Of a DNA stretch of 24,120 bases, positions 1 to 24,120 are shown piece by piece (position 1 is the first letter of the stretch; each line of letters begins with the position of its first letter). The notes beneath the pieces were generated by a model that worked only from the letters and a program-made list of their open reading frames with translations, was not told the DNA's origin and searched no databases. Position numbers and translations under genes: made by a program. Source of the stretch: a virus; the IMG/VR virus record IMGVR_UViG_3300025128_004349, positions 1 through 24,120 of that record; one strand, 5' to 3'.

Positions 1-1
1 C

Positions 2-946
2 AAGCGTGTGGATGTCTCTAGTCCCGGCCCGCCTTCGGGACATTTTTACAACGTATGCACGGGAGGCAACTGGAAACAGTACCATGTAACAGCCTTCGAT
101 TGCCCACATCTCTCCGAGGAATACATTACAGAAATCAAGGAGTCCTACGGCGAAACCTCCGCACTCTACAAGTCCATGATAATGGCTGAGTTCGGGGGGA
201 TGGATGAGCAAGTAGTCATCAATCACCAGAAGCTTGTTGAGCTAGACAAGATGGAGATTGAACACGTTGAAGAAGAGACTAACACAGCCGGTCTCGACCT
301 GTCGGCTGGTGGTGACGAGCAAGTCCTAGTAGTTCGGAACGGCAACAAAACACTAGCGGTTGAAGCCTTCAACTTCAGAGACACAGTTGCCCTAGTAGAC
401 CACCTAGAATTCCTATTCAAAAAATACGAACTAACAACAATCTACGGTGACGCGGGTGGTCTGGGTAAACCCATCCTAGACCAGTTACGAATCAACTGGG
501 ACATCAAATACGTTTTAAACCAAGCCAAACCATACAACAGCCTCGCCTATTTGAATCGTGGTGCTGAACTTTGGTTTAGTGTAGCCAAGCTTATAGAGTA
601 TGGTGACATTATAGTCCCACGCGAATCCAAGCTACGCAAGCAACTAGCCTCACGCTACTATGTGGTCACCCCACAAAACAAACTTCAACTTGAGAGCAAG
701 AAACAGGCACGGTCAAAAGGTCATGTTTCACCAGATAGAGCTGATGCTTTTGTTCTTGCCTTTGCAGATTATCGGGGTAGAAAGCCGAAGAAGTTAGCCG
801 TTAAAAAGGTTAAAAAGCATGAACACAAACAATTTAGGCTGAATAAGCCACGGGTCACTTTCGGTAAAGGATATAACGTAAGAGCAAATAATTGGTTACA
901 CGATGAAATACAACAACTACAAGAATTATCAGGACGCAGCAACTAG
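2..946 (+). CDS. terL: Terminase large subunit, C-terminal part (5'-truncated)
   Basis: This is the nuclease half of the ATP-driven DNA packaging motor, which docks on the portal and cuts concatemeric DNA. The reading frame is open to the left edge, and the GTG at 8 lies inside what looks like the end of the ATPase domain (SSPGPPSGHFY resembles the conserved S-x-P-x-x-x-G-x-F segment), so the true start lies outside the window. Counting from that GTG, the RNase H-like nuclease acidic residues appear as D97 in GLDLSAGG, D148 in IYGDAGG, and D243/D246 in SPDRADAFVLA. The last 50 residues are Lys-rich and form a basic tail. The 3' end overlaps the portal gene by 44 bases. The family assignment rests on motif order and the neighbouring portal gene. 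I have not assigned it to a terminase subtype. Confidence 0.9.
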   Translation, partial: KRVDVSSPGPPSGHFYNVCTGGNWKQYHVTAFDCPHLSEEYITEIKESYGETSALYKSMIMAEFGGMDEQVVINHQKLVELDKMEIEHVEEETNTAGLDLSAGGDEQVLVVRNGNKTLAVEAFNFRDTVALVDHLEFLFKKYELTTIYGDAGGLGKPILDQLRINWDIKYVLNQAKPYNSLAYLNRGAELWFSVAKLIEYGDIIVPRESKLRKQLASRYYVVTPQNKLQLESKKQARSKGHVSPDRADAFVLAFADYRGRKPKKLAVKKVKKHEHKQFRLNKPRVTFGKGYNVRANNWLHDEIQQLQELSGRSN

Positions 947-2666: not shown

Positions 2667-2817
2667 AGATGTTAGTTATCTTGCCACAAAACGATCAGTT
2701 CCAGATGGTGATGTTCGGACGGTGGCGACTCAGATAAAAACAGTAGACGAAGTAATACAAATACTAAATGACAAAGACCGATACAAAAACAGCGGAAGCA
2801 ATCGAGCAAGAATTTGA
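2509..2817 (+). CDS. Small helical protein overlapping portal and scaffold genes
   Basis: This 102-residue hypothetical protein is out of frame with both neighbours. It overlaps the portal 3' end by 158 bases and the scaffold 5' end by 50 bases. The part from about residue 15 on (EATKAALEEQAWGQWVDNPT, then LLRQERERLVKDVSY and VATQIKTVDEVIQIL) looks like a real helical protein: aromatic and hydrophobic residues at helical spacing and mixed charge. Small proteins of this look are common between portal and scaffold genes in podoviruses. The portal frame over the same bases is low-complexity Gly/Gln/Ser. The start is uncertain: ATG at 2509 gives a Tyr/Asn/Lys-rich head that may not be real, and TTG at 2551 or a later start is possible. 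Role unknown; it could be a head-assembly accessory protein. Confidence 0.6.
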   Translation: MHSKYNKYNSKSNSLQEATKAALEEQAWGQWVDNPTTKVFLSLLRQERERLVKDVSYLATKRSVPDGDVRTVATQIKTVDEVIQILNDKDRYKNSGSNRARI

Positions 2818-3901: not shown

Positions 3902-4013
3902 TTTGGCAGACTTTCTGCTCTAATCCTGTTGCTTCTATTGGTAAGGGCATACCACGCTACTCGTGTGAAGGGCATCACAACTCGTGTTTAACAATTGAAT
4001 ATATTAAAACATT
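3902..4013 (+). promoter_or_regulatory. Gap upstream of the major capsid gene, with imperfect direct repeat
   Basis: This is the only gap of more than 100 bases in the window, and it precedes the gene that must be expressed most strongly. It holds a weak 5-bp hairpin just after the scaffold stop (GCAGA-ctt-TCTGC, 3906-3918), an imperfect direct repeat (AAGGGCAT...ACTCGTGT at 3943-3966 and again at 3968-3987), and an AT-rich leader TTTAACAATTGAATATATT before the ATG. No convincing sigma70 -35/-10 pair or T7-type promoter was recognised. The scaffold frame stays open for 29 codons past its stop, to a TAA at 3989-3991, so a tiny peptide is an alternative reading. A regulatory role is inferred from position only. 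Confidence 0.35.
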
Positions 4014-5414: not shown

Positions 5415-5421
5415 CAATCAT

Positions 5422-5447
5422 GGGGGGCTTCGGCCCCCCTTTCCTTT
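5422..5447 (+). terminator. Rho-independent terminator after the capsid gene
   Basis: A 7-bp all-GC stem (GGGGGGC / GCCCCCC) is capped by a TTCG tetraloop closed by C-G, the exceptionally stable cUUCGg form, and is followed by TTTCCTTT. It begins 7 bases after the capsid stop codon. The downstream tract is interrupted by CC, so it may be partly read through, which would set a step-down from capsid to fibre expression. This is the clearest transcription signal in the window. Confidence 0.88.
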
Positions 5448-5453
5448 AACATT

Positions 5454-5832: not shown

Positions 5833-8800
5833 ATGGCAAGAATTGTACAGCAGGGTGTAATCACCACATCGGGTACGTCCTACGAAAACGAACCCATCAT
5901 CAAGTCGGATGGTGCGGGTGAGGTGATGCAATGGCTTGCGTCTACTGGCGACAGGAACATTACGGTTGATGAAAGTTCGGCCAATGCTTTGTCGCTGATA
6001 GCTGAAAACACCGCACACGCAACTCAAACCGAATTTACGCAAGGGTTGACGAAAGCCGGTTTGATAATTGAAACCACTTACATAAACCCGTCCTATCAAG
6101 GTGGACTGTTTTGGCGAACGTCAGATAACAATGTAACAAAACCGAAAGGTGGAATTTATCTCAAAGAGGAGGGTTCGGGTACATCTATGTACTTTGGCAC
6201 TAGTAGTGCATTTGGGACTGGGATTAACAACGACGCAATAATTATCAACCCAACTGGCACAGTCACTATGGCTGGCCCGATCACAATCGGCTCGCTGGAC
6301 ATTGGCCACGGTGCGGGTGGTACAACTAACACCGCAGTAGGAACAGATGCTTTAGACAGTTCACACGCTAGTGCAACGCATAATACAGCGATTGGCAGTA
6401 ATGCATTAACGGGAACACATACTGCTGCTGCTTTGTACAACACGGCGGTTGGAGCGGACGCCGGTAAAGGTATTACTACGGGGTCAAGCAATACTGCTGT
6501 CGGTGCGTACTGTCTGGATGTCACGGAGACAGGCATCAAAAACACGGCTGTTGGTAATGGTGCGTTGGGTGCAGGTTGCGTGAATGACAACACGGCGGTT
6601 GGTTTTGAGGCACTTAACGATTTCACAGGTAGCAGCGCAACAGCAGTTGGTTCAGGTGCAGCAGAAGCAGCGACGGGTGCGGCTGAACTCACAGCGATTG
6701 GTAAAGGTGCTGGCGCAACGCTGACAGACGAAACTTCCAACACGCTGGTTGGCTTCAACGCTGGTAACACTCTCGCAGGTGAGTCGAACACATTTATGGG
6801 TGCTGATGCTGGCCGGTACGCTACCAGCGTTGAACATTGTACAGCTATTGGCCGACACGCAATGCGCGGTGCGTCTTCTGGCACATTCCCAACAGGCGAC
6901 AATAATATTGCCGTGGGGAACTACGCGCTAGACGCAACGACTACGGGATACTCAAATGTTGCTGTTGGTCGTAGTGCTGGATCAGCAATTACTACGGGAA
7001 ACTCAAATGTTGCGGTTGGTAGAGATTCACTCGCAGTATTCACCGGCAGTAACGCAACTGCTGTTGGATCGGGTGCATTATCTTTATCAACGGGTGCGGC
7101 GCAAGCGACTGCGGTTGGTTATCAAGCATTATCAAATTTGGCAACTGCCTCTTACTGCACCGCATTGGGTTACGCTGCTGGACAGAACTCCATCAACGCA
7201 TCCAACACTTTTGTTGGCACCGCTGCTGGTCAATATCTCGGTGACGCGCAGCATTGTATTGCGATTGGACATGAGGCGTTAAGAGGCGCAACATTTACCG
7301 ACGCCACGCAAGCTGGTGCCATAACGAGTGGAAACACCATTACTATGGACGGTGCTAATGCGGACATAGTTGTAGGTATGGTAGTTACTGGTAGCGGTAT
7401 CGCGGCGGGTACTAGTGTTGCTGGGGTTGCTTCTTCGTCTGCAAACCCACAAGTGTTTACGTTAAACCAAGCCATAGCGTCAACTGTTGCGGGAGGTACT
7501 TCGCTGACGTTCTACAAGAACCAAGGCGACTACAACATTGGCATAGGCAGCAACACGCTGGACGCAATCACTACGGGGTATGCTAATGTGGCCATTGGTC
7601 ATACCGCTGGATCGGCATTAACAAACAACATACATAATGTAGCCATTGGACATGAGGCGTTAAATGCAACCGACGCAGACGGACATTATAACATAGCCAT
7701 CGGCTCGTACACACTTGATGCAGTAAGTTCGGGGGATAAGAATGTTGCCATTGGACACCAAGCTGGTACGGGAATCACGACTGCACTAGGTGCTGTTGCC
7801 ATAGGATACCAAGCACTTTACTCCGAAGATTTAGACGATGGTAATGTAGCTATTGGCTATCGTGCGCTTGCTACGCAGAACACTAACGATTCAAACAACG
7901 TAGCGATTGGTTACGATGCCGCACATGCACTCAACGGTGGTACAAACAGCGTGTATGTGGGTTATCTAGCCGGTGGTGTTGGTGCGATTGATGGCGATGA
8001 CAACGTGGTCATTGGCATGGGCGCTGGGTTGAACGCCGTGGGGATGTCCAACGCGGTTCTTATTGGTAAAGGTGCTGGTGGTACGGGAGTAATTGCCGGA
8101 GTCAACAACATCTGCGTTGGTTTAGCTTCTGGCAACGATCTTGTAGCGGGAGCCAGCAATATCCTAATTGGAACTAATGCCGGTACAGAGTTAACAGCCG
8201 GTACAGAGAACGTTGTCATTGGAACAGCCGCGCTAGATGCCGCTGATACGGAGTCAGACCGAAATTACAACGTAGCTATTGGACACAACGTACTGACAGC
8301 GCAAACCGCCACTTGCGAGTACAACGTAGCTATTGGACACAGCGCACTAGCGTCACAAAACGCCGATAACGTAAAGAACACCGCCATCGGTGGTCTGGCG
8401 GGTGCTGCGATTGTGGGTGGTAGCACTAATACGTTAGTTGGTTACTTGGCTGGTAATGACAATGTGTCAGGAAACAGCAATACTGCGATGGGAAACCACG
8501 CTTACGCCAAAGGTACAGCATCTAACAATACTGTAATTGGTGCATACGCTGGTAGTTCAATTGAGAACAATCCAAGTGCAGCAGCATTTAGTGGTGCTGA
8601 TAACGTATTGGTGGGTTTCAACGCCGGTTACACACTTACAACCGGCGCGGGTAACGTACTCGCCGGGAAGGATGCTGGTAAGGTAATGAACACCGGCAAT
8701 CACAATATCGCCATTGGGTATCAAGCTGCTGATGGGATGGCTGGTGATGCGGATTACAATATTGCGATTGGCCATTCTGCGTTAGGCGGTGCAACTGGCG

Positions 8801-10590
8801 CAGCATCATCGAACATTGCTATCGGTGCAAGCGCACTTGTCGCGCAAAACGATGCGGCTGCAATCAATTTGGCCATTGGCCGAAATGCCGGTACGGCAAT
8901 CCAAGGCGGCTCACAGAACGTGCTGATCGGCCACTCAGCGGGGAGTGCGATTACGTCTAGCGGTGATTATACGGCTGTTGGTTTCAATGCGCTGACGCTG
9001 GCAACCGGCATACGAAACACGGCGTTTGGTGTGAAGGCAGCAGCGCAAGTTCTTGCGGGTACATACAACACCGCGCTTGGCGGTTATGCGTTATACGAAG
9101 CGGGAGATGATTCTGACGGTACTGAAAGCTACAACACAGCGGTTGGTTATGGTGCATTGTACGCACTTGATGTTGATGACGGCGAACACAACACGGCACT
9201 TGGCTATCACGCTGGTCGGAAATTTGCCACAGACGGCAGCACGGATGTAGTAGACCTAGTGCAATGCACTTATTTGGGTTCTGGTACAGAGTGTGGGAGT
9301 ACATCACCAGAAAATGAAATTGCCATTGGTTATGCTACGCACGGTATTGGTAACAATACAGTCGCATTGGGTAACACCAGCATCGGTCACATCAAAGGCC
9401 AAGTAGATTTTGCGGCGTACTCGGACAGGCGCATCAAGCGCGACATCACGAACGACGATACTGGTCTGGCGTTTCTTGAGAAGCTACAGCCGGTTACTTA
9501 CAAGCCGGTTAATCCCGCTGACTATCCAGATGCAATTGCCGAATCGCGATTCAAGTCTGTAGACAGGCAAGAACTCGTCTCCCCAGCAGTCGAAGCGGCA
9601 GAAGCCGTTTACGAAGATGCAATTGTGCAAGAGGCGCGTGATGCGGTAGCTGAAGTCACACGCGAGGAAGTTCATCCAGCCATCGAGGAAGTCACGGAGG
9701 AAGTAACGATCCCAGCAGTTGAAGCGGTGTACGAAGATCGGGTGGTCGTTCACGCTGAAGCCGAGCGCACCGAAACCCGCATCACACAAGAAGCGCGGGA
9801 GGAGATTACGTCTACGCGTCACAAGCACAGCGAGAAAGAAGTCACCGAGACTGTCACAGGCGAAGAGATCGTTGAAGTTGATGGCAAGTGGGTGAAGCGT
9901 GCGACCAGCGAAGAAGTCACGCGCACCGAGCGCACACCGTTGTACGAAGAGTGTGACTTGTACAACGAAGACGGTTCAATCTGCACGCATTGCGTGACGC
10001 CAGCAGTTGAGGCGAAAGATGCAGTTGTTGACGAAGACGGTAACGAGATTGAACCGGCAGTCGAAGCGGTTGCCGAAGTTCGTGCGAACGACGTTCACAA
10101 AGTGCCGGTGATGGAGTCGTACATCTCGCAAGAGGCACAAGAAGAAGTCACCGAGACAACCACAATTCCAGCAGTCGAAGAAGTGACCGAGCGCGTGTGT
10201 GTGCGAGAAGCAGAAGCAGAACGCAAAGAGACGCGAGTGGTTGTGGAAGCGAAAGCCGAGTGGACAGAGACGCACATTGTCACACCGGCTGAACCGGCCC
10301 GTGAAGAGGTGACGGAACGCCGATTGGTGAGTGCTGCGGTAGAAGCCAAAGATGCCGTCTACGAGACAGTCACGGTTCCCGCTGACGCACGACCAGACGA
10401 TGATGACACGGTGCGGTTGGGTCTGATAGCGCAAGATGTGCAGACCGCGATGACCGAGGCGGGTGTTGAGTTCGACATAGTGAACGAGTCGCCGAATGGG
10501 AAGTTGTCGCTGAAATATGGCAATCTGGTGATGCCGCTAATCAAGGCGGTGCAGGAGTTGTCGGCGCGGGTGAAGACGCTTGAAGGATAA
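5833..10590 (+). CDS. Giant tail fibre / adhesin with Hep_Hag-type repeats and S74 chaperone
   Basis: This 1585-residue protein is probably the trimeric receptor-binding fibre. Order of parts: residues 1-165, a beta-rich head that likely attaches to the particle; residues 166-1189, about 54 copies of a 16-20-residue repeat with core N-[TVI]-A-[VI]-G-x-x-A-[LG], the YadA-head/Hep_Hag beta-roll type; an 80-residue interruption at about 487-566 (VVGMVVTGSGIAAGTSV and following); then an S74-type intramolecular chaperone. The chaperone signature SDRRIKRDI gives the Ser1197/Lys1202 dyad, with predicted self-cleavage between Tyr1196 and Ser1197, and the domain ends with RLGLIAQDVQ, LSLKYGNLVMPLIKAVQELS and a coiled coil. 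About 300 residues of Val/Glu/Thr-rich sequence split the chaperone. It starts one base after the previous stop, with no Shine-Dalgarno. Autoprocessing is known for the family and inferred here. Confidence 0.9.
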   Translation: MARIVQQGVITTSGTSYENEPIIKSDGAGEVMQWLASTGDRNITVDESSANALSLIAENTAHATQTEFTQGLTKAGLIIETTYINPSYQGGLFWRTSDNNVTKPKGGIYLKEEGSGTSMYFGTSSAFGTGINNDAIIINPTGTVTMAGPITIGSLDIGHGAGGTTNTAVGTDALDSSHASATHNTAIGSNALTGTHTAAALYNTAVGADAGKGITTGSSNTAVGAYCLDVTETGIKNTAVGNGALGAGCVNDNTAVGFEALNDFTGSSATAVGSGAAEAATGAAELTAIGKGAGATLTDETSNTLVGFNAGNTLAGESNTFMGADAGRYATSVEHCTAIGRHAMRGASSGTFPTGDNNIAVGNYALDATTTGYSNVAVGRSAGSAITTGNSNVAVGRDSLAVFTGSNATAVGSGALSLSTGAAQATAVGYQALSNLATASYCTALGYAAGQNSINASNTFVGTAAGQYLGDAQHCIAIGHEALRGATFTDATQAGAITSGNTITMDGANADIVVGMVVTGSGIAAGTSVAGVASSSANPQVFTLNQAIASTVAGGTSLTFYKNQGDYNIGIGSNTLDAITTGYANVAIGHTAGSALTNNIHNVAIGHEALNATDADGHYNIAIGSYTLDAVSSGDKNVAIGHQAGTGITTALGAVAIGYQALYSEDLDDGNVAIGYRALATQNTNDSNNVAIGYDAAHALNGGTNSVYVGYLAGGVGAIDGDDNVVIGMGAGLNAVGMSNAVLIGKGAGGTGVIAGVNNICVGLASGNDLVAGASNILIGTNAGTELTAGTENVVIGTAALDAADTESDRNYNVAIGHNVLTAQTATCEYNVAIGHSALASQNADNVKNTAIGGLAGAAIVGGSTNTLVGYLAGNDNVSGNSNTAMGNHAYAKGTASNNTVIGAYAGSSIENNPSAAAFSGADNVLVGFNAGYTLTTGAGNVLAGKDAGKVMNTGNHNIAIGYQAADGMAGDADYNIAIGHSALGGATGAASSNIAIGASALVAQNDAAAINLAIGRNAGTAIQGGSQNVLIGHSAGSAITSSGDYTAVGFNALTLATGIRNTAFGVKAAAQVLAGTYNTALGGYALYEAGDDSDGTESYNTAVGYGALYALDVDDGEHNTALGYHAGRKFATDGSTDVVDLVQCTYLGSGTECGSTSPENEIAIGYATHGIGNNTVALGNTSIGHIKGQVDFAAYSDRRIKRDITNDDTGLAFLEKLQPVTYKPVNPADYPDAIAESRFKSVDRQELVSPAVEAAEAVYEDAIVQEARDAVAEVTREEVHPAIEEVTEEVTIPAVEAVYEDRVVVHAEAERTETRITQEAREEITSTRHKHSEKEVTETVTGEEIVEVDGKWVKRATSEEVTRTERTPLYEECDLYNEDGSICTHCVTPAVEAKDAVVDEDGNEIEPAVEAVAEVRANDVHKVPVMESYISQEAQEEVTETTTIPAVEEVTERVCVREAEAERKETRVVVEAKAEWTETHIVTPAEPAREEVTERRLVSAAVEAKDAVYETVTVPADARPDDDDTVRLGLIAQDVQTAMTEAGVEFDIVNESPNGKLSLKYGNLVMPLIKAVQELSARVKTLEG
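6328..9399 (+). repeat. About 54 tandem YadA-head/Hep_Hag-like coding repeats
   Basis: These degenerate ~50-base coding repeats each encode a variant of NTAVGxxAL or NVAIGxxAG. Spacing is mostly 16-18 residues, with some longer loops containing Asp/Asn/Gly. Copies have diverged in DNA, but stretches such as AACGTAGCTATTGGACACA recur (near 8269 and 8323). In the YadA head family each repeat forms one turn of a left-handed beta-roll, so the array would be a long trimeric shaft. The array is broken once, at 7291-7530, by a different beta-rich segment. Such arrays can gain or lose copies by recombination and can be misassembled. Confidence 0.88.
9421..10590 (+). other. S74 intramolecular chaperone domain with large insertion
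   Basis: This is the C-terminal 389 residues of the fibre, predicted to be released by autoproteolysis after trimerisation. The N-terminal half carries SDRRIKRDI and FLEKLQPVTYKPV. The C-terminal half resumes at RLGLIAQDVQTAM near residue 1527 and ends in a heptad-like helix. Canonical domains join these halves by a short loop. Here about 300 residues intervene, made of repeated PAVEA-x-x-AVYE, REEVTE and RxETR phrases, with a small Cys cluster (C1374, C1384, C1387). The insert is probably a beta-hairpin or coiled extension of the chaperone. Its function is unknown. Confidence 0.8.
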
Positions 10591-10595: not shown

Positions 10596-10937
10596 ATGGC
10601 AAATTATGGTAATAGAATTAAAGGTGGCCAGAGGTTAACAGGGCCACGGAAGAAACCAACAGCAGCGGGTCGTAGGCGGCTCGAAAAAGGTATAAAGACT
10701 ATATCGAAAGGCGTAAAGAAAGCCGCGCCGGTGGTTAGGGCTGTTGCGAATCCTAGCGGGATACCAACGCGAGTTGTAAACAGATTAACACGCCCACTAC
10801 AAGAAAAAGCTGCTCGTGGTGCTGGTAAGATAATAAAAAAGGTTGTCAACAGATCTAGAGGGCTTTCACCTAAAGCTGCACCTAAAAGAAAGACTGCTCC
10901 AGTAGGTTCTCGCAGTATGCGAAGAACAAGAAGATAG
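10596..10937 (+). CDS. Highly basic protein, possible nucleic-acid binder
   Basis: This 113-residue protein has a very high Arg/Lys content and almost no acidic residues (PRKKPTAAGRRRLEKGIKT; ISKGVKKAAPVV; KRKTAPVGSRSMRRTRR). A short hydrophobic, Pro-containing middle separates two basic arms. It starts at ATG 10596, five bases after the fibre stop, with a reasonable ribosome site (GAAGGA, 8 bases upstream). The composition suggests binding to DNA, RNA or an acidic surface, such as condensing packaged DNA or acting as a virion-internal basic protein. No named family is recognised. It resembles in style, but is not a clear paralogue of, the basic protein at 12610. Confidence 0.72.
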   Translation: MANYGNRIKGGQRLTGPRKKPTAAGRRRLEKGIKTISKGVKKAAPVVRAVANPSGIPTRVVNRLTRPLQEKAARGAGKIIKKVVNRSRGLSPKAAPKRKTAPVGSRSMRRTRR

Positions 10938-11634: not shown

Positions 11635-12607
11635 TGTTGGAGGAGTACAATATCCATACACGCCACAGGGCGTAGCAGCTGCGGAACAAGCGCAACGGCA
11701 GATACAAAAGACAGGCCCATACATACCACAACCAACTGCTGGTCTTGATCCTGCTCGTATGTCGCCGCCCTTAACGAGTCCATCGCACCCAATGGCTCAA
11801 CGCCAAGTGCCAGACTTACAACCAGCAAAAGAAAATTACAATGCAATGAATTTCTATGGTTGGCGCGGTCAGGCTGGCAATCCCTTATCACCAAGGACTA
11901 AAGCCCCGACATATGAAGACAGATACACCATGCAATCTGATCCGAATAGATGGACAAGCGGCGCAGCAATGAGAGGTCAGTATAATTATAGAAATAGTCC
12001 GTCTAATCCTGCGGTACAGAGATCAGTACAAGATTTACAACCATACAATGATCCACCAATACAAGGCACAATGTCGGGTCAAGGTATTTTGGGAACACTT
12101 GGTTATAGTAACGAAGCTATGCCATCAAGACAGGATTTAAGCAATGTAGTTGCTTATGGTGATTCTGGTTTGAGGTATGGGGATAATCGCATAGTCTTTA
12201 GCCGACCACAATTACTAGGAGGCCCATCAAGTCCTTGGTATCAACCTATTGCACAAGCTCCTAGAGGTCGGACGATTGAGACAACTGATCCCGGTGTAGG
12301 TTATGGTAATAGTCCATCCAATCCCAATTGGGGTCAGGAGAGGGGTGGTTCAGTAGGTAGAATGGGGCCAATGAATGCTCCAGTCAGCGCAAACTATAGT
12401 GCGATAAGCCCGTCAAACAGGATTGCTGGTAACATTGCGGCGGTAATGCAAGGTAGAACGGGGCCAAGTCCCGGCGTTACCCCACACTTAAATCAGTCAG
12501 GTAGACTCGAAAGTCCACCTAATGCGCGACCGTGGACAGGCTTTGGCCCAACAGGGCAACCCGTACCAAGCAGACAACCCGTACAAAAAGGGATACCTAG
12601 AGGATAA
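11627..12607 (+). CDS. Disordered Pro/Ser/Asn/Gly/Gln-rich protein
   Basis: This 326-residue protein is low in Leu, Lys and Cys and rich in Pro, Ser, Gly, Asn, Gln and Arg, with many Tyr and Trp scattered through it, and is probably largely unfolded. A phrase recurs: SPSHPMAQRQVPDLQP (from about 11780), SPSNPAVQRSVQDLQP (from about 11998) and NSPSNPNWGQ (about 12310). No signal peptide, membrane helix or catalytic motif is seen. The ATG overlaps the lipoprotein stop by 8 bases, and the stop is followed two bases later by the histone-like gene. No family recognised. A structural linker, minor virion protein or RNA-binding disordered protein is possible. Unbiased codon use throughout and a long uninterrupted frame support it as real. 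Confidence 0.72.
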   Translation: MPNVGGVQYPYTPQGVAAAEQAQRQIQKTGPYIPQPTAGLDPARMSPPLTSPSHPMAQRQVPDLQPAKENYNAMNFYGWRGQAGNPLSPRTKAPTYEDRYTMQSDPNRWTSGAAMRGQYNYRNSPSNPAVQRSVQDLQPYNDPPIQGTMSGQGILGTLGYSNEAMPSRQDLSNVVAYGDSGLRYGDNRIVFSRPQLLGGPSSPWYQPIAQAPRGRTIETTDPGVGYGNSPSNPNWGQERGGSVGRMGPMNAPVSANYSAISPSNRIAGNIAAVMQGRTGPSPGVTPHLNQSGRLESPPNARPWTGFGPTGQPVPSRQPVQKGIPRG

Positions 12608-14666: not shown

Positions 14667-15734
14667 ATGAGTGCTGAATACATAATTGACAGGTTTGGGC
14701 GCAAGGTCGGCCTTAATGCAGGTGACGCCAATCAACGCTACGTCATTCTCGACTTCCTCAACGAGGCAATGCAGTCAGTATATGAACACGTTGATATTCC
14801 CGGCTCATTGGTTGAAGAAGAATTTTACGTTGCCGGTAAGCAACGAATTGCGTTGAGTCGTGATGTCCACGCCATTCGTGCGATGCGCGAAAAGGAGTCG
14901 AAGCTAACATGGAGTATTAACAATCTCCTGTCAGAATATAACCAGAACAACTGGCGAAGTGACAATCGTTGCTGGCGTGTTGTCGGCTACGAGCCACTCA
15001 AGAAATCCTTATCCACAGCAATTACTGGCTCTCGTGGTAGTTCTGCAACTGGTCTAACAGTCCATTGGTTTGCCAACATTGCAGCCACAGAAAAACTTGC
15101 GGTAACATTTGAGACATCAGCTTCAGACAGGCAAACACTTGAGGTGTGGCCAAACTACCCAAGCGCAGCAGCGGCCTACACAACTGCATCGTCGCCACAC
15201 TCAATAGCACTCACGCTGGACAACAATCGCACCATCACATCTGTTGTGGGCATGAGACGGTTTGATACAAACAACGAACGGTTTGGTGGTTATACAGCTA
15301 ACGATGGCGGGTTGGTCAGGTTGGTGGATACAGCCGACACATCAATTATTTATTCTGAGATACCACACGACGAGACCGAGGCTCAGTATATGATAGTGGA
15401 CATCTCCGAGTTTCCTTGGGATGACACAGCGGCACAGGACGATTCACACACTCTACAAGTCTTGTACAAGAAGAAGCTGAAACACATCAAGAGCGACAAC
15501 GATCCATTCCCACTCTACGGTTTTGAGAATATCGTGATGCACAAGATGATGCAGTTGTTCATGGAGGAGCAAGGCAAGCTGCAAGAGGCGATGGTTTATG
15601 ACGGCAAAGTGACACGCGATTTGGGTCGCAAGATAGCTGACCTTGAACGTGGACAAAAACGCCTAATGCAATTCGGGCGACACGGGCATGATGCAATTAC
15701 GCTGGCGAGACGCTGGCATTATCACCGTGGCTGA
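14667..15734 (+). CDS. Putative head-to-tail adaptor / neck protein
   Basis: This 355-residue protein has a helical N-terminus (YIIDRFGRKVGLNAGDANQR; VILDFLNEAMQSVYEHVDIP), a beta-rich middle with Thr/Ser/Ala, and a helical C-terminus (ENIVMHKMMQLFMEEQGKLQ; DLERGQKRLMQFGR). This helix-beta-helix plan, with 'DIPGSLVEEEF' near the start and an 'LQVLYKKKL' strand before the last helices, is typical of podovirus neck proteins (T7 gp11-like adaptor) that seat on the portal. The next gene, overlapping by 47 bases, looks like the gp12-type nozzle, so the pair fits the adaptor-nozzle order. Function is inferred from plan and neighbourhood. There is no Shine-Dalgarno before ATG 14667. Confidence 0.68.
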   Translation: MSAEYIIDRFGRKVGLNAGDANQRYVILDFLNEAMQSVYEHVDIPGSLVEEEFYVAGKQRIALSRDVHAIRAMREKESKLTWSINNLLSEYNQNNWRSDNRCWRVVGYEPLKKSLSTAITGSRGSSATGLTVHWFANIAATEKLAVTFETSASDRQTLEVWPNYPSAAAAYTTASSPHSIALTLDNNRTITSVVGMRRFDTNNERFGGYTANDGGLVRLVDTADTSIIYSEIPHDETEAQYMIVDISEFPWDDTAAQDDSHTLQVLYKKKLKHIKSDNDPFPLYGFENIVMHKMMQLFMEEQGKLQEAMVYDGKVTRDLGRKIADLERGQKRLMQFGRHGHDAITLARRWHYHRG

Positions 15735-17724
15735 TTACTCACAACAATCGTTTGTTGGCGGCATGAATATGTCGGTGGATGACACTCGGCTGGGAGAAGA
15801 TGAGTACAAGTTTGCCAAGAACATTCGCAACCGTTTCGGCACACTTGAAGGGATCAAGAATGTCAACGACATCTCCAGCAGTATTGGCGCATTCACTTCA
15901 AACCCGCCAATCCAAGCAATCTATTCTATTGGCGAGTTCGTCTTCCTCTTCTTCAAGGGCGGCTGCAAATATCGTAAGCCATTAAACCCCGACAGTACAT
16001 GGGCCGTTCTCTATAGTGGCGGCACAATGGATAAAACAGCTGAGATATTTGTTCAGGCAGTTCCAGCTTCCACGCAAAACTTTCTACGCAAGGAAACACA
16101 AGTAGCAGGTGCATCACTTGAGTTGGATACAGACAATGCTGTGCAGAGAACAGTTGCAGCTATTATTGTGCAGGACGGCATAAACCAACCAAGAATCATA
16201 GAAATTTCTGGAGGAACAGCAACCGACAGGACATCCAAGAATTATGCAGAGTGGGTGTATGGTGGCACTATCACAGGTGTTATTGATCTTACACCAACAC
16301 CAAGTACAGCATGGCAAGCAAGCCAAACTCACTCGGCTTTTGCTGCAACAAGCACAAGTGGTTATGGTGTGAGCGCAACCTTCTCGGCAACGACAGATGG
16401 TAGTGGAAATCCAACATTCACCTTGGTTGCTGGGGGTCTTGATTATAAAAAGAATGATACACTAATTTTTACTGATCCCGGCTCAACCTCAAATACAGCA
16501 ACCTTAACAGTAACCACAAGGTCATCAGCAGCGCGTGAGTACGTTCCAATAGGGAAGCAAATGGCCTTCTTTAATAACAAGCTATTTGTTGTTAGTACTG
16601 ATGGTACAGAGATTTATCATAGCGTGAGTGGTCGCCCAATGGATTTTACCATCCCGGTTACAACTGAGGGTGACAAGATAAACACAGACGAGACAATTGG
16701 TGGCGCACCGGCAACAGCTTACACAGTTGGTTACAACGTGATTACAGCGTTGTCCGTGTTAAATAATGAGGCACTTTTCGTCTCAACAGTTGGTGGAAGT
16801 TATGGTGTTTCGCTGGACTACACAATGACTGTGTTTGCCGAGCCGATGTTTAGGAAGCAATATCTGTTCACGGCCAACTCAATCAATCAACACTCGTTCG
16901 TTGATTTGTTGGGTGACTTTGCCTTCATTGATCCAGAGGGCTTGAGGTCGTTCAATGCTGTGATGCAATCAAAGAATGAGGGACGCAACTCAATCTTCTC
17001 GCTCAAGGTCGCACGGCTATTCAAGGATGTTGTGCAGGAAACGAAGAAGTGTGCCGCAATTGTCTTTGATGACTACGCCTTGTTCGCTTGTAACACAATC
17101 TTTGGTCACGGCATTCTCGTCTTTGACACGCTCACAAAACAGTTTGTAAGTTTCGATCAACTCACGGATGACAGCAACTCTAACATTGGGCCAGTCATAA
17201 ACTTTGCCAAGGTGGAGACAAACAACAAGCGTGAGCTATTTGCAATCACACATGGAACAACAACCAGCTCAGGCGACCCAGCCTACAAATGCGTTAAGTT
17301 ATATGAGGGTTCTAACTTCGCAACGGCATACGTCGAGACTAAAGCATTTTGCACCAACGATACCAGAGTCGAGCAGAAGCCACAGGAGCTTCGCCTTCTA
17401 TTTAACAAGATACAATCAGCCTCGTCGGTCACAGCAACCCAACGTGTGAACGACGAAACAACGCCTGACACGTCGGCTGGCTCACAAGCCAAGACGTTGT
17501 CGGCACAGGTCACGCCCATCACATTCCCCGTCACTCTATCGACGGTATGGAGTGGGCCGAAACAAATACAAAATTTACTTTACAATTTTCAAGGCGGTCA
17601 ACAGGGTTGGAAAGTGTCTTACGCATTGAAATGGACAAATGGAATTAACCTGTCGAACATCCAACTTCAGACGCAGGACATCACTCCTATGAACCCAATG
17701 TTATCACAAGCTTATGTCAGTTAA
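15688..17724 (+). CDS. Tail nozzle / tail tubular protein B-like
   Basis: This 678-residue protein has the start typical of podovirus nozzle proteins: SFVGGMNMSVDDTRLGEDEY followed by KNIRNRFGTLEGIK, the F-x-GG-x-N...D...NxRNRxG signature seen in T7 gp12-like and other tail-stabilising proteins. The body is rich in short beta strands with Gly/Thr/Asn turns and many aromatic residues, consistent with the six-bladed propeller-like platform that forms the tail tip. An internal Thr/Ser/Gly-rich stretch (about residues 220-260) may be an inserted beta domain. Two adjacent ATGs (15688, 15691) lie inside the preceding gene, so coupled translation is likely. The tail tube and fibre attachment role is inferred from the family. 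Confidence 0.75.
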   Translation: MMQLRWRDAGIITVADYSQQSFVGGMNMSVDDTRLGEDEYKFAKNIRNRFGTLEGIKNVNDISSSIGAFTSNPPIQAIYSIGEFVFLFFKGGCKYRKPLNPDSTWAVLYSGGTMDKTAEIFVQAVPASTQNFLRKETQVAGASLELDTDNAVQRTVAAIIVQDGINQPRIIEISGGTATDRTSKNYAEWVYGGTITGVIDLTPTPSTAWQASQTHSAFAATSTSGYGVSATFSATTDGSGNPTFTLVAGGLDYKKNDTLIFTDPGSTSNTATLTVTTRSSAAREYVPIGKQMAFFNNKLFVVSTDGTEIYHSVSGRPMDFTIPVTTEGDKINTDETIGGAPATAYTVGYNVITALSVLNNEALFVSTVGGSYGVSLDYTMTVFAEPMFRKQYLFTANSINQHSFVDLLGDFAFIDPEGLRSFNAVMQSKNEGRNSIFSLKVARLFKDVVQETKKCAAIVFDDYALFACNTIFGHGILVFDTLTKQFVSFDQLTDDSNSNIGPVINFAKVETNNKRELFAITHGTTTSSGDPAYKCVKLYEGSNFATAYVETKAFCTNDTRVEQKPQELRLLFNKIQSASSVTATQRVNDETTPDTSAGSQAKTLSAQVTPITFPVTLSTVWSGPKQIQNLLYNFQGGQQGWKVSYALKWTNGINLSNIQLQTQDITPMNPMLSQAYVS

Positions 17725-17956
17725 TGTAGCTCACACGGATTTCACAGACGCAACTACGTTGTTTGCTGACCTTGCGGCAGCAAACGCCATGCTTGACGGT
17801 CTGACAGTACCAGACGCGACAACCAGCACCGATGGTGTTGCGAAGATGGCAGTACTTGTAGCCGATCCCTCTGGTAATAGTGCAACGAATAATCAAACGG
17901 CAATCATTGCCATCTTAACAAGTCTTAAAAACGCTGGCATCATGTCCAGCTCATAA
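17714..17956 (+). CDS. Small head-fibre-like protein
   Basis: This 80-residue protein overlaps the nozzle gene by 11 bases. The C-terminal half (TSTDGVAKMAVLVADPSGNS, then AIIAILTSLKNAGIM) resembles the short conserved end of phage head-fibre proteins (the Phage_fiber_2 type, pattern 'GvVk.A..vAD...n.L...Lk.aGlm'). The N-terminal half is an Ala/Asp/Thr-rich helix. In those families the end segment probably trimerises or anchors a fibre. Here the protein lacks a long shaft, so it may be only the anchor piece or an unrelated small tail protein. The family likeness is from memory and unchecked. Confidence 0.58.
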   Translation: MSVNVAHTDFTDATTLFADLAAANAMLDGLTVPDATTSTDGVAKMAVLVADPSGNSATNNQTAIIAILTSLKNAGIMSSS

Positions 17957-17960
17957 CGTC

Positions 17961-19109
17961 ATGCCTAGTATTGAAGATATTTTAAATCCCGCAAAGTGGC
18001 TCGAAAAACTCAGCGAAGCTGGGCAAGCCATATTAAAGCCGTTCATAGATAATATTGGTGGAATGTTTAAGGAGGGTGGTATTTTGTCTGGTGATATGAT
18101 GGGCAATATACTGCAAGCATTTATCATATCTGAAACCTTTGGCAAAGATGACACCGCAAAGGATGCTATCAGACAGAATACAGAAGCATTTAAAAAAGCA
18201 CTTCCAGAGTTTGTTGAGGCAAAAATTGCCGCCGGTAAAATAGAAGCAACTGCATTGGCAGATGCTAATGATTTAATTGAATTTGGTTTCTTAACTAAAC
18301 GCAATCCTGACGGCACAGTAAAATCTCAAACACAAATAAAAGACGCTCAAGGTCGAGGTACTGGTAAGCGTGATTTGTATAATAGAGTAAACTTTGGGAC
18401 AGAAACACAGTATCAAACTGATGAGCAAGGTAACATTGTTAAGCAAATTGATGAGCAAGGTAAGCAAGTTCCAGTTGTATTAAAAGAGGGTGTAGAGGGT
18501 CAATACCAACTAGAGAATAGACAGCGCCGTGAGCAAGATAGGAAGGATCGTACTGCTTACGCTCGTAATCAAGCTGATATTTATTCTAAAGATGCTGATA
18601 CTGTGAAGACTGTTGGTGAAGGATTTCGCGCTTTTGAGGAAGCGGCTGCGCCTCATCTTGCTGATACGCAAGCACAACAAGCTGCAAGCCTTCAAGCATT
18701 GCTGGCATCACAAGACCCCACGAAGTTGTCTGGTTCAGAGATGTCCAATGTTGAACGCGGCTTAGGTCGGATGGGTATTGGCGTTGGTCGAACGTCTGAG
18801 ATGGACAAGTACAAGGCAGCGATGACCTTTGGTGATGCCTTGGCGCAGAAACAACAGCGGCTTGGTCAAGCCTTGGCACAGACTGGATCAGTCGCATCAA
18901 GTTTTGGTAGTGGTTACAATCCCGGCGTATTGCAGGGACAGACTGGTGTTCAGAATGTATCTCAACCGGGAAATCAAGCCAACTTTGGTAATGCAGCGGC
19001 CAATGTTTATAGTGGCACTACTGGTATGACTCAGAAATTTCAAGACCCAAGCGCAACCAAGTCAGGGATATTCCAAGATTTAATTTTAGGTGGTGGTAAG
19101 GGAGATTGA
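17961..19109 (+). CDS. Putative internal virion / ejection protein
   Basis: This 382-residue protein has an amphipathic N-terminal helix region (LEKLSEAGQAILKPFIDNIG), a long charged helical middle with EGQYQLENRQRREQDRKDRT, and an Ala/Gln-rich stretch (AQQAASLQALLASQDPTKLS) followed by SGSEMSNVERGLGRMGIGVG. The phrase 'LSgsE...vERglgRmgi' followed by a Gly-rich, Gln/Asn-rich tail recurs in podovirus internal proteins released with the DNA (T7 gp14-like position). Placed directly after the nozzle genes and before the giant protein, it probably belongs to the ejection machinery. The ATG 17961 has no Shine-Dalgarno. Confidence 0.6.
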   Translation: MPSIEDILNPAKWLEKLSEAGQAILKPFIDNIGGMFKEGGILSGDMMGNILQAFIISETFGKDDTAKDAIRQNTEAFKKALPEFVEAKIAAGKIEATALADANDLIEFGFLTKRNPDGTVKSQTQIKDAQGRGTGKRDLYNRVNFGTETQYQTDEQGNIVKQIDEQGKQVPVVLKEGVEGQYQLENRQRREQDRKDRTAYARNQADIYSKDADTVKTVGEGFRAFEEAAAPHLADTQAQQAASLQALLASQDPTKLSGSEMSNVERGLGRMGIGVGRTSEMDKYKAAMTFGDALAQKQQRLGQALAQTGSVASSFGSGYNPGVLQGQTGVQNVSQPGNQANFGNAAANVYSGTTGMTQKFQDPSATKSGIFQDLILGGGKGD

Positions 19110-19111
19110 TT

Positions 19112-20005
19112 ATGGCCAGTTTATTTGACGTAGTAAATAGAAGGCGACGCTCAAAGGAGTTAGCCGATAAGTTCCGTGAAGGCGCAACGCCAGAGGAGCT
19201 TGAATACTTTGACCGCTTTTACCAAGAGCCATCGTCCAGCCCAGTAATGGCGCGTGGTGCGCTTGAGGGTGAGTTGGATGCAGCAGATGCTTTGCAGCGA
19301 CAATTGATGGCGCGAGGCATGAACAACCTACAGGCTCAAGACGCAACTAGACGCGCCTTGGAGCAGGAGGAAGCTGAGTTAGACAGAACTGCACAGAGTA
19401 TTGCCACGCAATATGGCCCCGGCGGTCTTAAAGGTACTGGCGAGGGTAGCTTTGAATCTTATCAACAAGGATTAAAGCCAGACTCAAGTTCAGTTGGTTG
19501 GGGGATTCACCCTGACGATCAAGACCGTGGCTTGTCACTTGATGATTGGTCAAGACAACGCGCTATGGCTAGGCAAGATGCGAGCGGTGTCTCTGCTGAA
19601 TCAAAGGCCCGTTATGACGAGCAGACGGTTGATGATCGTATTAGCATGATCGAAGAACAAGCGAAGTCATTGCCCGCAGAACTTCAGGCTAAAGGCGCGA
19701 GCGCAGAGGTAACTACCGCGTATATGCAGGAGTTGGGTAGGCAAATACAAATCACAAGGGAGAACGCGCCAGATACTTCTGCATACCAGAATGCTGTGAC
19801 TGCGGTAGAGAACTTGCACAAACTTTACAAAGGCACTTCGGGCGGTGGCGGCTTTAGTTCGTATGGCGCACAAGGCTTTATTAACGAAACGCTAAAAGAA
19901 GGTATAACTCAATCACAAGCATCGGGTGATACCGTGGTTGAGCAAGACGGTCAGCAACTTATTGTTCCAAGACAAACTCACGTTGAAGGTGAATACCCGA
20001 AATGA
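19112..20005 (+). CDS. Hypothetical protein, probable internal virion component
   Basis: This 297-residue protein starts at ATG 19112, chosen over TTG 19106 because GGGAG lies 7 bases upstream, one of the few strong ribosome sites here. The protein is mostly charged helix (VNRRRRSKELADKFREGATP; ALEQEEAELDRTAQSIATQY), with a Gly/Ser/Pro-rich linker and a Gln-rich C-terminus. No membrane segment or enzyme motif is visible. It sits between the internal virion protein and the giant HEVAH protein, with an ATGA overlap to the latter, so it may be the T7 gp15-position protein of the ejection complex. That is inference from order; no family recognised. Confidence 0.55.
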   Translation: MASLFDVVNRRRRSKELADKFREGATPEELEYFDRFYQEPSSSPVMARGALEGELDAADALQRQLMARGMNNLQAQDATRRALEQEEAELDRTAQSIATQYGPGGLKGTGEGSFESYQQGLKPDSSSVGWGIHPDDQDRGLSLDDWSRQRAMARQDASGVSAESKARYDEQTVDDRISMIEEQAKSLPAELQAKGASAEVTTAYMQELGRQIQITRENAPDTSAYQNAVTAVENLHKLYKGTSGGGGFSSYGAQGFINETLKEGITQSQASGDTVVEQDGQQLIVPRQTHVEGEYPK

Positions 20006-23000
20006 CCCTTGAAGAAAAGAAGGATAGACTACGCAAAAGACTTGGATTACCTGACGATCATCCTGTCTTCACACCAGAAGAGTACGAGGCTAATAGACAA
20101 GCGCAGCAGACAACTGCTGTAGGTGCGGCCTTTGAGGCGGCAAAAGACGAGGCAGTTCCCGGTCTCTTTGGTTTAGCTGGTCTCAAGGCTGGCGCACAAA
20201 CCATAGGAAAGCTACCACTTCCCGGCGTGTGGGGTAAAGTTGCTAAAGGTGTTGGTATATTTGGTACTGCAATTGGTAGCGCAATAGCTGGTCATAAAGT
20301 GCAGGACGAAGTTCTTGAGGCGGTCAGGGACGAGGACACGAATCAAGCCGACAAACTTCTCTCACAAGAACTTCGCAAAGAACATCCAATTGCATTTACG
20401 GCTGGTGAAGTTGTTGGTGGATCATTGGGTGGTGGCATTGGGCCATCAACGAGAAACCTTAAAGGCTTGGGTGAGATCGTGAGGACTGGTGCTGGATGGC
20501 GCGGTAAAGCTAACAAGGAGCTTGTTAGCCACACACTACAAGAAGCTGGTGTTGGTGCGGGCGTTGGTATGGCACTTGAAGGTGCGCGACAATACTCCGA
20601 GGGAGACTTTAAACCCGGCGCAATGATAACCACCGGCATTGGTGGTGCGCTGTTTACCAAGCCAATTTTGCATGGTAAGAAGTTGATGGGTACACCTGTT
20701 GTGCCGCACAGCGAAGCAGAGTATGCCAAGCAAACACGCGATCTCAGTTTTGTTAAGGTAACGCAACCGAAGGTAAGTGCTGAAGCACAGTTTTCTGCTG
20801 AAAACATTCCCCCAACTCTTGAGCATATAACCGCAGAAGAAGCTGTCTATTTAAATGATCCGAGATTATCGGATGTGCAACGGGCTGCACGAATTGATGA
20901 TTACCAGAAAGTGTACATGAGCAAGAAGGCTGGTGATGATGCCGCCAAGAAGCCCACCAAAGATTCTGCTAAGGATAGTTCCCAGAAAAGAGCCAGCGAT
21001 CTTGCAAAGAAAGAAGACGTAGCATCCAAGCCAGACGGTGCAGAAGAGGCACTTACCACGTTTGCGGAAAAGCAAGGTCTACAAGATAAAGTTAAGGCGA
21101 GTGTTAATCGAGCAGTTGCAAATGCCTCTGATAAGCAATTGAATCAGACTGAGCGCATGGCTCAACAGGGTGCTGCCCGTAAGTACGCTGATGAGATCGA
21201 GAAGACTCCAGAAGAACTCCGCATAAAACTTGAAGAAGAGATCACCAAGAAGCTTGGCTCTGATCCTTGGTTGACCGTCAAAAATCTGATGGCCCAACGT
21301 AACGTTGGAATTAGATTAGCGGTAGATGACCTTGTTGATCAAGCTGGTCGCACAATTTACGGCTTCACGCCAAGAGGCAGTCGTGATGTTGTGCTAACTC
21401 CAGCCATGCTGCCAGAAACTCCGTTCCATGAAGTCGCTCATGTGTGGGTGAGTGATATGCTTGGCTCAATCAGCCGTGATGCCAAGACCTACGGTGAGCC
21501 AACTGCTGACGCTAAAGCCATGAAAGGATGGCTTAAAGAGTTGTACGAAGTAGATGCGGTGACTGATGAAAGAGCGAAGTCATCAACTGAAAGTAGGGAT
21601 GATGCGTTGGAAAAGTTTGCAAAGGAGACAGGAAGGAAACTAGCTGATAGGATGTTGAACTTGCCGAAGGGTAAGTTTGCTAAAATGCGTCGTTGGTTTT
21701 CTGATATTCAACGTGGCCGTCGCATGGCAGGGAAGACCAATAGCACGGATGACATCTTGGATTTCATGGCGCAACGCATTGAGATTGATCGGAACCCGCT
21801 TGCAGACACCGACTTGATGGCAAGGCAAGGTCAAAGCCTTGCAAGTTTCGTAAACTCATCGAAGGTTTTTGACACGCAGTTGGGTGATCCATCAGAGAGT
21901 CACAAGGCAACAACCACAATTGACGGTGTTAAGTATGAGTCAGTTGCAAATGCTTACGCTGTCCCAACAGAGATTTCCAAACTCTTTAACATTCCCGATA
22001 TGCCGAAGGGCTTTGCCAAGAAGTATGCGGGTGAGTTGAACAAGCTGAAGGCATCCATCGTGGGAGGAACTGAGTACACTCCCAGCCTAGACTATGTTCA
22101 ATCGTTTAGCTTGGCCGAAGTTGAGAATTATCCGGCAGCTTACAAGAGCATGATGCAAGGTTTGCAGAAGCGTAACACAGGTGCGCTCAAGCAAATCTTC
22201 AAGATGTTTGAAGACGATGTAATTGACATTACCTTGGAGACAAGTCAGCCCGATATGTACCGAGGCTTGTACGATGAGACCGAGATCAAGATTAACATTC
22301 CCACAATAGATGATAACTTTGATATGGTCTTGGCTCAACAGTTGGTCAAGCGGCACTTGAGAGATAATCAAGATGTCTTGAAAGACCTCACAGGTGTCTG
22401 GCAACGGTTGACGTTTGGTGATGGTTGGTTCCAAGGCTACGAGCCTGAACTTGTTACAAGATTTCTGAGGTTCGCATCTCAGCATGATATGCCCGAAGAG
22501 TTCGCCTCGGTAGTTGCACGTTACAACGAAGACCTTGGCGTGGACGGGATTCAGTTTGGTTATCGTGGTCAGTCAAAGTCGATGCGCGATAACTACGCCA
22601 GCTATCACGACAAGATGTCGAACCAAGGCAACTCATTGCATTTCGCAATGAAAAACTTGCCCGATGATGTACGCAAAGCTTTTGCCCAGACAATGCTGAA
22701 CAAGTCTAGTATGTGGGATGACGCTGATACATTCCTCGCAGACTTTGATGCCATGATAAACACGTTTGGCATAAGTGGTTCACACGCTCGCAAAAAATTT
22801 AACAGGTTGAGCCAATCACCAAGGCACGTTATGGATGGCTTAACGAGTAAGGAAGCGTTCAAGTCACTTGATGGTTTCAACAGGCTTTGGCCGCGTGTTG
22901 ATGCAGCTCCCCACGTTAGTCCTGTTGATCATCCCAATCCATATGTCTTGAGGGATTTATGGTCAAAAGATGTTGTCCCGTTTGAGCAGTCCAAGTTCAC

Positions 23001-24120
23001 AACGACATCAGCGTTGGATGCCATAACCAGTTTATCTGAGGAGGCTATTGGCATTAAAGGTTTGCGGAATGTTTTTGAGCGAGTTGTTACACCGCCAATA
23101 CCACCAAGGCGCGTTGACTATCATATGGGAGAAGAGGTGACTGGGAAAGGTGAGTCTCCCGTCATAGGTATGGTCAAGAATATGCTCAAGAATGAGAAGC
23201 TGGATGCTGACTCAATAGACCTTGAAGGCCATATTTCCCGTAAGAAAACTTTGGATGCAGAACGTGCCAAGAGATATGCGACTCTACCAGATTTCAAGAT
23301 TAGAGAGCCGAAGACTTGGAAACCATTTCAGATGGCGTTACGCGGAATGCGCCCAGTTATTGACAGGATTAGGGAGATTGGCCTGACACCAGCAGCAAAG
23401 AAGTTGGCAAATGATGTTGCAGATGCTTTCAACGCAACGCTCAAGGATGAGACGCTGTTGAACGGTCAATATCTGGAGAAGCTAATGCTAATCCACAGCG
23501 AAGTTAAGATGTCACCCGCTGAACTTGATGACCTTGGCGACTTCCAGTTACAGCGTTGGCACAAGAAACTTGGGTTGCGTGAGAAGTATGATGAAGAGTT
23601 ATTCAAGCGATACATAGCGAATCCACGAATGCGTTACTATGATCGTGCGATTCAGAATATCATGCGCGACACACGCCAGTATCAGAATGATATTGGAATG
23701 ATGGTGGAATCATATCGGGACGGTAAGCCAATGCTTTCTCCCGGCAAGTACACGCAGGAATACACGCCAGAGATCATCACACAAGAAGTTCGTACCGTGA
23801 TGATGAAGCGCGTGACTGCGAGTCCCGAATATCAGAAGCTATTGAAAGAAGCCGTTGATTACTGGACAGGACTTGCCAAACGCTTCGATGAGAAGCTAGG
23901 TTCTGATGATCTCGATACAACGTTGAGTATTGGTGAGAATGGCGAAGAACTTAAAGGCGGTGGTAAAGATGATGCCGAGCAACTTCGGATAAAGTTTGAG
24001 CAGTTGTTTGATAAGCTCTCGCTGAGTTTCCAAGGTAAGGAGAAGAAGCTTGGCGCACACAAGTTCAAGGCGTTGCGTGTTGCCACAGGTAAGTACGGTC
24101 TACCCCCACATTGGGTTGAG
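20002..24120 (+). CDS. Giant virion protein with HEVAH metallopeptidase motif (3'-truncated)
   Basis: The frame opens at ATG 20002 (ATGA overlap) and runs without a stop to the right edge: at least 1373 residues, so the true protein is larger. Parts seen: Gly/Ala-rich hydrophobic stretches at about residues 52-95, 128-150, 181-194 and 204-225 (for example FTAGEVVGGSLGGGIGPS), a Lys/Asp/Ser-rich linker near 310-350, then a zincin-like region with HEVAH at 476-480 (ligands His476, His480, catalytic Glu477; E537 in ALEKFAKETG is a possible third ligand), followed by about 840 residues of charged, mainly helical sequence. Podovirus ejection proteins of the T7 gp16 position are similarly huge and often carry embedded peptidases or lytic domains. 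Function is inferred from size, place and motif. Confidence 0.78.
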   Translation, partial: MTLEEKKDRLRKRLGLPDDHPVFTPEEYEANRQAQQTTAVGAAFEAAKDEAVPGLFGLAGLKAGAQTIGKLPLPGVWGKVAKGVGIFGTAIGSAIAGHKVQDEVLEAVRDEDTNQADKLLSQELRKEHPIAFTAGEVVGGSLGGGIGPSTRNLKGLGEIVRTGAGWRGKANKELVSHTLQEAGVGAGVGMALEGARQYSEGDFKPGAMITTGIGGALFTKPILHGKKLMGTPVVPHSEAEYAKQTRDLSFVKVTQPKVSAEAQFSAENIPPTLEHITAEEAVYLNDPRLSDVQRAARIDDYQKVYMSKKAGDDAAKKPTKDSAKDSSQKRASDLAKKEDVASKPDGAEEALTTFAEKQGLQDKVKASVNRAVANASDKQLNQTERMAQQGAARKYADEIEKTPEELRIKLEEEITKKLGSDPWLTVKNLMAQRNVGIRLAVDDLVDQAGRTIYGFTPRGSRDVVLTPAMLPETPFHEVAHVWVSDMLGSISRDAKTYGEPTADAKAMKGWLKELYEVDAVTDERAKSSTESRDDALEKFAKETGRKLADRMLNLPKGKFAKMRRWFSDIQRGRRMAGKTNSTDDILDFMAQRIEIDRNPLADTDLMARQGQSLASFVNSSKVFDTQLGDPSESHKATTTIDGVKYESVANAYAVPTEISKLFNIPDMPKGFAKKYAGELNKLKASIVGGTEYTPSLDYVQSFSLAEVENYPAAYKSMMQGLQKRNTGALKQIFKMFEDDVIDITLETSQPDMYRGLYDETEIKINIPTIDDNFDMVLAQQLVKRHLRDNQDVLKDLTGVWQRLTFGDGWFQGYEPELVTRFLRFASQHDMPEEFASVVARYNEDLGVDGIQFGYRGQSKSMRDNYASYHDKMSNQGNSLHFAMKNLPDDVRKAFAQTMLNKSSMWDDADTFLADFDAMINTFGISGSHARKKFNRLSQSPRHVMDGLTSKEAFKSLDGFNRLWPRVDAAPHVSPVDHPNPYVLRDLWSKDVVPFEQSKFTTTSALDAITSLSEEAIGIKGLRNVFERVVTPPIPPRRVDYHMGEEVTGKGESPVIGMVKNMLKNEKLDADSIDLEGHISRKKTLDAERAKRYATLPDFKIREPKTWKPFQMALRGMRPVIDRIREIGLTPAAKKLANDVADAFNATLKDETLLNGQYLEKLMLIHSEVKMSPAELDDLGDFQLQRWHKKLGLREKYDEELFKRYIANPRMRYYDRAIQNIMRDTRQYQNDIGMMVESYRDGKPMLSPGKYTQEYTPEIITQEVRTVMMKRVTASPEYQKLLKEAVDYWTGLAKRFDEKLGSDDLDTTLSIGENGEELKGGGKDDAEQLRIKFEQLFDKLSLSFQGKEKKLGAHKFKALRVATGKYGLPPHWVE

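Follow-up and report, generated by a model that had tools for sequence, protein, structure and literature searches.

The phage DNA analysed here (the window: 24,120 bases of IMG/VR record IMGVR_UViG_3300025128_004349) contains no CCWGG or GGWCC site, and many other palindromic words are missing from it or nearly so. The set of missing words changes from clade to clade in a family that has no cultured member, and the phage, for which our searches returned no methyltransferase, very probably evades Type II restriction-modification in its host through loss of recognition sites. An earlier note on this DNA had proposed escape from EcoRII/Dcm-like and AvaII-like restriction. Our analysis supports escape through the palindromic nature of the missing words, their changes between clades, sites not shared with a relative (G005) and the failure to find either a deamination footprint or a methyltransferase; the naming of two enzyme types, however, understates the case, because dozens of palindromes are avoided.

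IMG/VR classes the window as linear, so it is probably a fragment, a partial phage contig; the genome beyond it was judged from relatives. The window begins within the terminase large subunit gene, reads rightward and ends within the gene for a very large probable virion protein (Table 1). The terminase gene is truncated by the contig start (its homologue in relative G005 has 504 amino acids). The names portal, scaffold and capsid derive from position and conservation, without family matches; for the probable portal protein both PHROG and Pfam were searched and gave no match. Identity in relatives is 82–97% for the probable portal protein and ~40–47% in distant ones; the corresponding values are 69–87% within the family and 35–43% in distant phages for the probable major capsid protein, and 60–90% and ~30% for the 355- and 678-residue proteins. 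The tail spike (1585 residues in all) has its S74 match at residues 1197–1224, with ~360 residues beyond the start of the chaperone domain (window positions 9420–10590); a repetitive stretch rich in Glu and Val precedes its C-terminus.

Table 1. Genes and sites of the window, with the basis for each
Feature	Position	Strand	Basis
Terminase large subunit, C-terminal part	8..946	+	PHROG 2 (E 2.6e-13); Pfam Terminase_6C (E 4.9e-6)
Probable portal protein, 587 aa	903..2666	+	Position and conservation
Probable scaffold protein, acidic, 377 aa	2768..3901	+	Position; family match searched for, none
Probable major capsid protein, 466 aa	4014..5414	+	Position and conservation
Tail spike, repeats and Peptidase_S74 chaperone domain	5833..10590	+	PHROG 4636 (E 2e-101); Pfam PF13884
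Two conserved proteins, 355 and 678 aa, probable head-tail or tail	14667..17724	+	Position
Very large probable virion protein	20002..24120	+	Open at contig end
Zero CCWGG, GGWCC, CASTG, YACGTR, GDGCHC, CYCGRG (whole contig)	1..24120		Exact counts
Sole RCATGY site, ACATGC	7923..7928		Exact search
Sole RGATCY site, AGATCT	10851..10856		Exact search
GGGCC, tolerated GGSCC site instead of GGWCC	12365..12369		Exact count
CCCGG at Pro-Gly pair, CCS choice avoiding CCWGG	14799..14803		Exact count
CCCGG, second Pro-Gly example	16477..16481		Exact count
CTWAG site, first of two remaining	18761..18765		Exact search
CTWAG site, second of two remaining	20969..20973		Exact search

Exact counting over the 24,120 bases bore out the absence that had been read by eye: CCAGG, CCTGG, GGACC and GGTCC each occur zero times. 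An order-2 Markov model predicts 35.8 CCWGG and 28.8 GGWCC sites. These expectations were checked against 1000 synonymous codon shuffles, in which each protein and the codon usage were kept, since the two kinds of null may differ; the shuffles, a control that the earlier note had called for, gave 32.1±4.5 CCWGG (minimum 13) and 21.3±3.8 GGWCC (minimum 10), and none of the 1000 reached zero for either word. The S forms are present, as had been claimed, and stand at shuffle expectation (CCSGG 22 versus 20.1; GGSCC 23 versus 22.1). The avoidance is visible in codon choice, again as reported: in the 20 Pro-Gly pairs Pro is encoded by CCC (15) or CCG (5) and never by CCA or CCT, although CCA is the most frequent Pro codon (137 of 312); in the 14 Gly-Pro pairs Gly is encoded by GGG (8) or GGC (6) and never by GGT or GGA, although GGT is the most frequent Gly codon (347 of 680). 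The examples that had been cited near positions 14800, 16474, 12364 and 12461 were found again in the sequence.

Composition or codon preference might make such words rare by itself; GGACC and GGTCC do hold uncommon dinucleotide steps, and the Markov and shuffle expectations for GGWCC differ somewhat. This explanation is refuted by the codon-preserving shuffles, and CCSGG, GGSCC and CAWTG lie at or above expectation and the avoided words are palindromic; we give it almost no credence.

The two named words are real but the list was incomplete, the codon shuffles showing many more missing palindromes. Observed counts in the window, against shuffle means, are 0 versus 43 for CASTG, 2 versus 32 for CTWAG, 0 versus 29 for GDGCHC, 0 versus 15 for YACGTR, 3 versus 22 for GGYRCC, 2 versus 21 for RGCGCY, 1 versus 13 for RCATGY and 0 versus 8.6 for CTGCAG. 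Summed over all 6-bp palindromes, the window holds 116 sites versus 348±17, nearly every one of these words being strongly depleted. Overall, GATC stands near expectation (72 versus 79), in agreement with the first reading, but the RGATCY sites among them are avoided (1 versus 17); GANTC is not avoided in the window phage, as had been stated.

Among the 5-mers the avoidance depends on the central base: CASTG is absent while CAWTG occurs 84 times, and CCWGG and CCSGG are split in the same manner. An unbiased scan of all 5-mers returned CCWGG, GGWCC, CASTG and CTWAG exactly as the avoided classes of the window, that is, 4 of the 32 classes with palindromic arms versus none of the 480 others (P = 1e-5). 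By counts alone a W- or S-centred 5-mer is equivalent to one asymmetric 5-mer plus its complement, and the palindromic reading is preferred because of this enrichment among words with palindromic arms. For 6-mers, pooling the sequences of the window's clade showed avoidance of 25 out of 52 testable palindromes, 9 out of 282 words that have a single degenerate pair and 3 out of the 1692 remaining words. Most of the avoided words with one degenerate pair we take to be known degenerate Type II sites (RCATGY, RGATCY, YACGTR, CYCGRG, and GDGCHC). We know of no enzyme specificity that matches CTWAG, AGAGCT, GCAGGC, or AGCCCT; in the literature searched, CTWAG appeared as a word in no paper and a search for CASTG gave nothing relevant.

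Scans with the terminase, capsid, and polymerase identified several dozen contigs of one family, as well as distant capsid relatives (~35–46% identity). Family genomes are about 42–45 kb; one contig (G011) has a terminal overlap of 181 bases and so is probably complete. The family, the window phage included, is apparently marine, judging from the IMG sample numbers. The contigs scanned yielded no tRNA, and no integrase was seen among the proteins searched (small open reading frames [ORFs] were covered in part, and the window is partial). Two further proteins of the family are encoded at locus L018: a 242-residue AAA+ protein with a match to the sigma-54 activator domain (15602–16327, minus strand; Pfam E 9e-55), unusual for a phage, and a 94-residue protein (17936–18217, minus strand) that is hardly more than a DnaA DNA-binding domain (Bac_DnaA_C, E 1e-8) and might bind host DnaA boxes. 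In IMGVR_UViG_3300002514_003772 (2093–3854) the portal gene lies in two overlapping frames; it is intact in relatives, and the split is a frameshift or sequencing error. Contig IMGVR_UViG_3300030372_002239 (loci L020–L023) looks like an assembly chimera of another phage and a family member, joined at 20236–20290 by a perfect 55-base repeat that lies within a tail gene. Its foreign part, the first ~20 kb, encodes an SU10-type capsid protein and itself lacks CCWGG (0/32, here and below observed/expected sites), GGWCC (0/35) and CTWAG (0/17) and keeps CASTG (49/41).

The missing words turn over between clades of the family. Wherever a clade offers enough sequence, CCWGG, GDGCHC, and GGYRCC are near zero. 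Two clades (G017, 20/32; G023, 25/32) carry GGWCC freely, and the others have almost none. CASTG, CTWAG, RCATGY, RGATCY, and YACGTR are on in some clades and off in others, as are the HindIII, PvuII, FspI, and BclI words; the PvuII word stands at 0/39 in clade D2 versus 42/20 in clade C, the HindIII word at 0/86 in D2 versus 37/34 in clade A2, and the FspI word at 79/67 in D2 versus 0/18 in A2. On the polymerase tree, the minimum number of changes under parsimony is 2 for GGWCC, 4 for CASTG and 3 each for CTWAG, RGATCY, and the HindIII word, counted over contigs of unequal length, some of them fragmentary; no change is required for CCWGG, GDGCHC, or GGYRCC, nor for the controls CAWTG and CCSGG.

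This turnover bears on a selection against palindromes in general, for structural or replication reasons. Six-base palindromes are indeed somewhat depleted in every cultured phage measured, and as this depletion is partly general in phages, a separate enzyme is not needed for each missing 6-mer. But TGGCCA (33/28) and CAATTG (42/44) are normal next to neighbours such as CGGCCG (0/9) and CTGCAG (0/14); CAGCTG, AAGCTT, TGCGCA, and TCGCGA are free in one clade and absent from the next; and a general pressure would not split W from S centres, CASTG being absent and CAWTG normal. We therefore regard general selection as a very unlikely source of the pattern.

Site content at homologous positions also differs between the window and G005, which are 85% identical in DNA over 17.8 kb. 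None of the 20 CASTG sites of G005 is shared with the window, versus 29 of its 53 CAWTG sites (P 6e-6), and none of its 14 CTWAG sites, versus 12 of 26 CTSAG sites (P 0.003); 12 of the CASTG changes and 10 of the CTWAG changes leave the protein unchanged. CCSGG is the best-conserved 5-mer class between the two (13 of 15, versus 55% overall; P 0.016), the outcome predicted by a bar on CCA and CCT in front of Gly.

Mutation rather than selection could also remove sites, through Dcm-like methylation of the CCWGG cytosines and their deamination to T. CCWGG is the classical Dcm site, and its methylation has been reported on some marine virus genomes (PMC9516812). Deamination should leave its products in excess, but in clade A1 CTWGG/CCWAG (1.18) shows no special excess over the other one-base neighbours (1.08–1.26), and the process leaves CASTG, CTWAG, the HindIII word and others unexplained; it is most improbable as the cause.

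A methyltransferase of the phage itself was considered as the cause of the restored sites in some clades, and none was found: no methyltransferase motif occurs in any ORF of at least 120 residues in all contigs, and searches of selected family proteins with Pfam, PHROGs, and PADLOC returned none, these searches being blind to other DNA modifications and to diverged enzymes, which could escape them. The family does encode nucleases (a staphylococcal nuclease [SNase] homologue and PD-(D/E)XK proteins), and a sequence-specific phage nuclease directed against host DNA would make the phage's own sites harmful. Such a nuclease would, however, need many specificities that switch among close relatives, and the companion methyltransferase was not found by these searches; the matched nuclease families are not known for short-palindrome specificity. 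We consider this origin extremely improbable.

A library or assembly artefact has as little to recommend it. All the sequences are metagenome or virome contigs, but a single metagenome (IMG 3300025099) yields two profiles, G011 with GGWCC at 0/40 and RGATCY at 2/46 and G023 with the GGWCC count given above and RGATCY at 54/55; the same absences recur across many samples, and fragmentation cannot produce codon-level avoidance within genes. The chance that an artefact underlies the pattern is minimal.

Avoidance of this kind is already known, and in breadth the window ranks high. Across 14 cultured phages to which the same measurements were applied, the observed/expected ratio for 6-bp palindromes is 0.36–0.80, versus 0.31 in the window. 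T7 and roseophage SIO1 share the absence of CCWGG with the window, as do two broad avoiders, one a Nostoc and the other a Methylophilales phage; no 5-mer is missing from the Polaromonas, Microcystis, Akkermansia, and Sulfitobacter phages or from one Vibrio phage, and in the other Vibrio phage the absences are confined to words containing GGCC. Escherichia phage T7 resembles the window in having no CCWGG and depleted 6-bp palindromes (ratio 0.43), but it also avoids GATC-containing words, tolerates GGWCC, CASTG, and CTWAG, and has Ocr against Type I systems. Nostoc phage Nsp-JY18 (CCWGG 0/96) avoids 21 of 34 testable 6-bp palindromes, although the words differ in part and GANTC is among those avoided. 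Methylophilales phage Venkman EXVC282S (CCWGG 0/22) avoids 13 of 30 and likewise lacks GGWCC, but it avoids CTNAG and has an annotated methyltransferase. Site elimination is a known answer of non-temperate double-stranded DNA phages to orthodox Type II systems; the lytic phages of Rusinov et al. (2018; PMC6286503) had known hosts, whereas here many words are involved and are gained and lost within one family. A single-motif precedent in marine phages comes from pelagiphages, in which GANTC is depleted and the phylogeny is partitioned by loss of this methyltransferase target word (Seong et al. 2022; PMC9516812); that case concerns one motif and a host methyltransferase, in contrast to the many palindromes and repeated switching described here.

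The two motifs had been offered as a handle on the host, which our analysis does not support: such motifs are commonly avoided (CCWGG by T7, SIO1, and the Nostoc and Methylophilales phages, GGWCC by the Methylophilales phage), so that a lack of either word tells little of the host by itself, and our searches identified neither a host nor a host restriction system. Comparison of the terminase, portal, capsid, polymerase, and sigma-54-type protein with cultured phages gave only distant matches (terminase roughly 24–32% identity, polymerase 22–24%) or, for portal and capsid, none, and the contigs scanned held no tRNA gene that could serve as a clue. Alignment of the capsid protein against 84,980 genomes returned one phage contig, 35% identical, in a Deltaproteobacteria metagenome-assembled genome (MAG; RA.bin139), with no capsid match in other genomes of that class. 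At 49.9 kb this contig (L088, G033:C112) is as large as an entire phage genome; it shows no avoidance of the 5-mers tested and may be mis-binned in the MAG. The capsid and terminase of another phage, whose sequence is attached to contig G010, were also followed as a host clue; they match cultured phages of several hosts, only distantly.

Selection by host Type II restriction accounts for the whole pattern, and such restriction is established as the reason why double-stranded DNA phages eliminate sites (PMC6286503). If it is the agent here, mutations that remove a site, often synonymous ones, would be retained and bring that class of site close to zero, and mutations that recreate it would be counter-selected; the third base of a Pro codon before Gly, for example, would be held at C or G. 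The broad list of missing palindromes would imply a host population that jointly possesses many Type II specificities, and once the hosts no longer carry a specificity, the corresponding sites would drift back, so that the returned sites in some clades may mark lost pressure.

The window is thus a strong fresh example of a known strategy, and the clade-by-clade turnover is the interesting part. Close relatives reveal which classes of site stay at zero in every clade and which come and go repeatedly, and with such a family the pace of site loss and return becomes measurable in nature. For any proposed host population, the avoidance profile amounts to a set of predicted enzyme specificities. It is conceivable, and we put it forward tentatively as less probable than not, that the family records how restriction systems have turned over in an uncultured group of hosts with dozens of Type II specificities, some of them without an enzyme known to us (CTWAG; AGAGCT and AGCCCT in clade D2; GCAGGC), the avoidance profile differing even between phages with ~95% polymerase identity.
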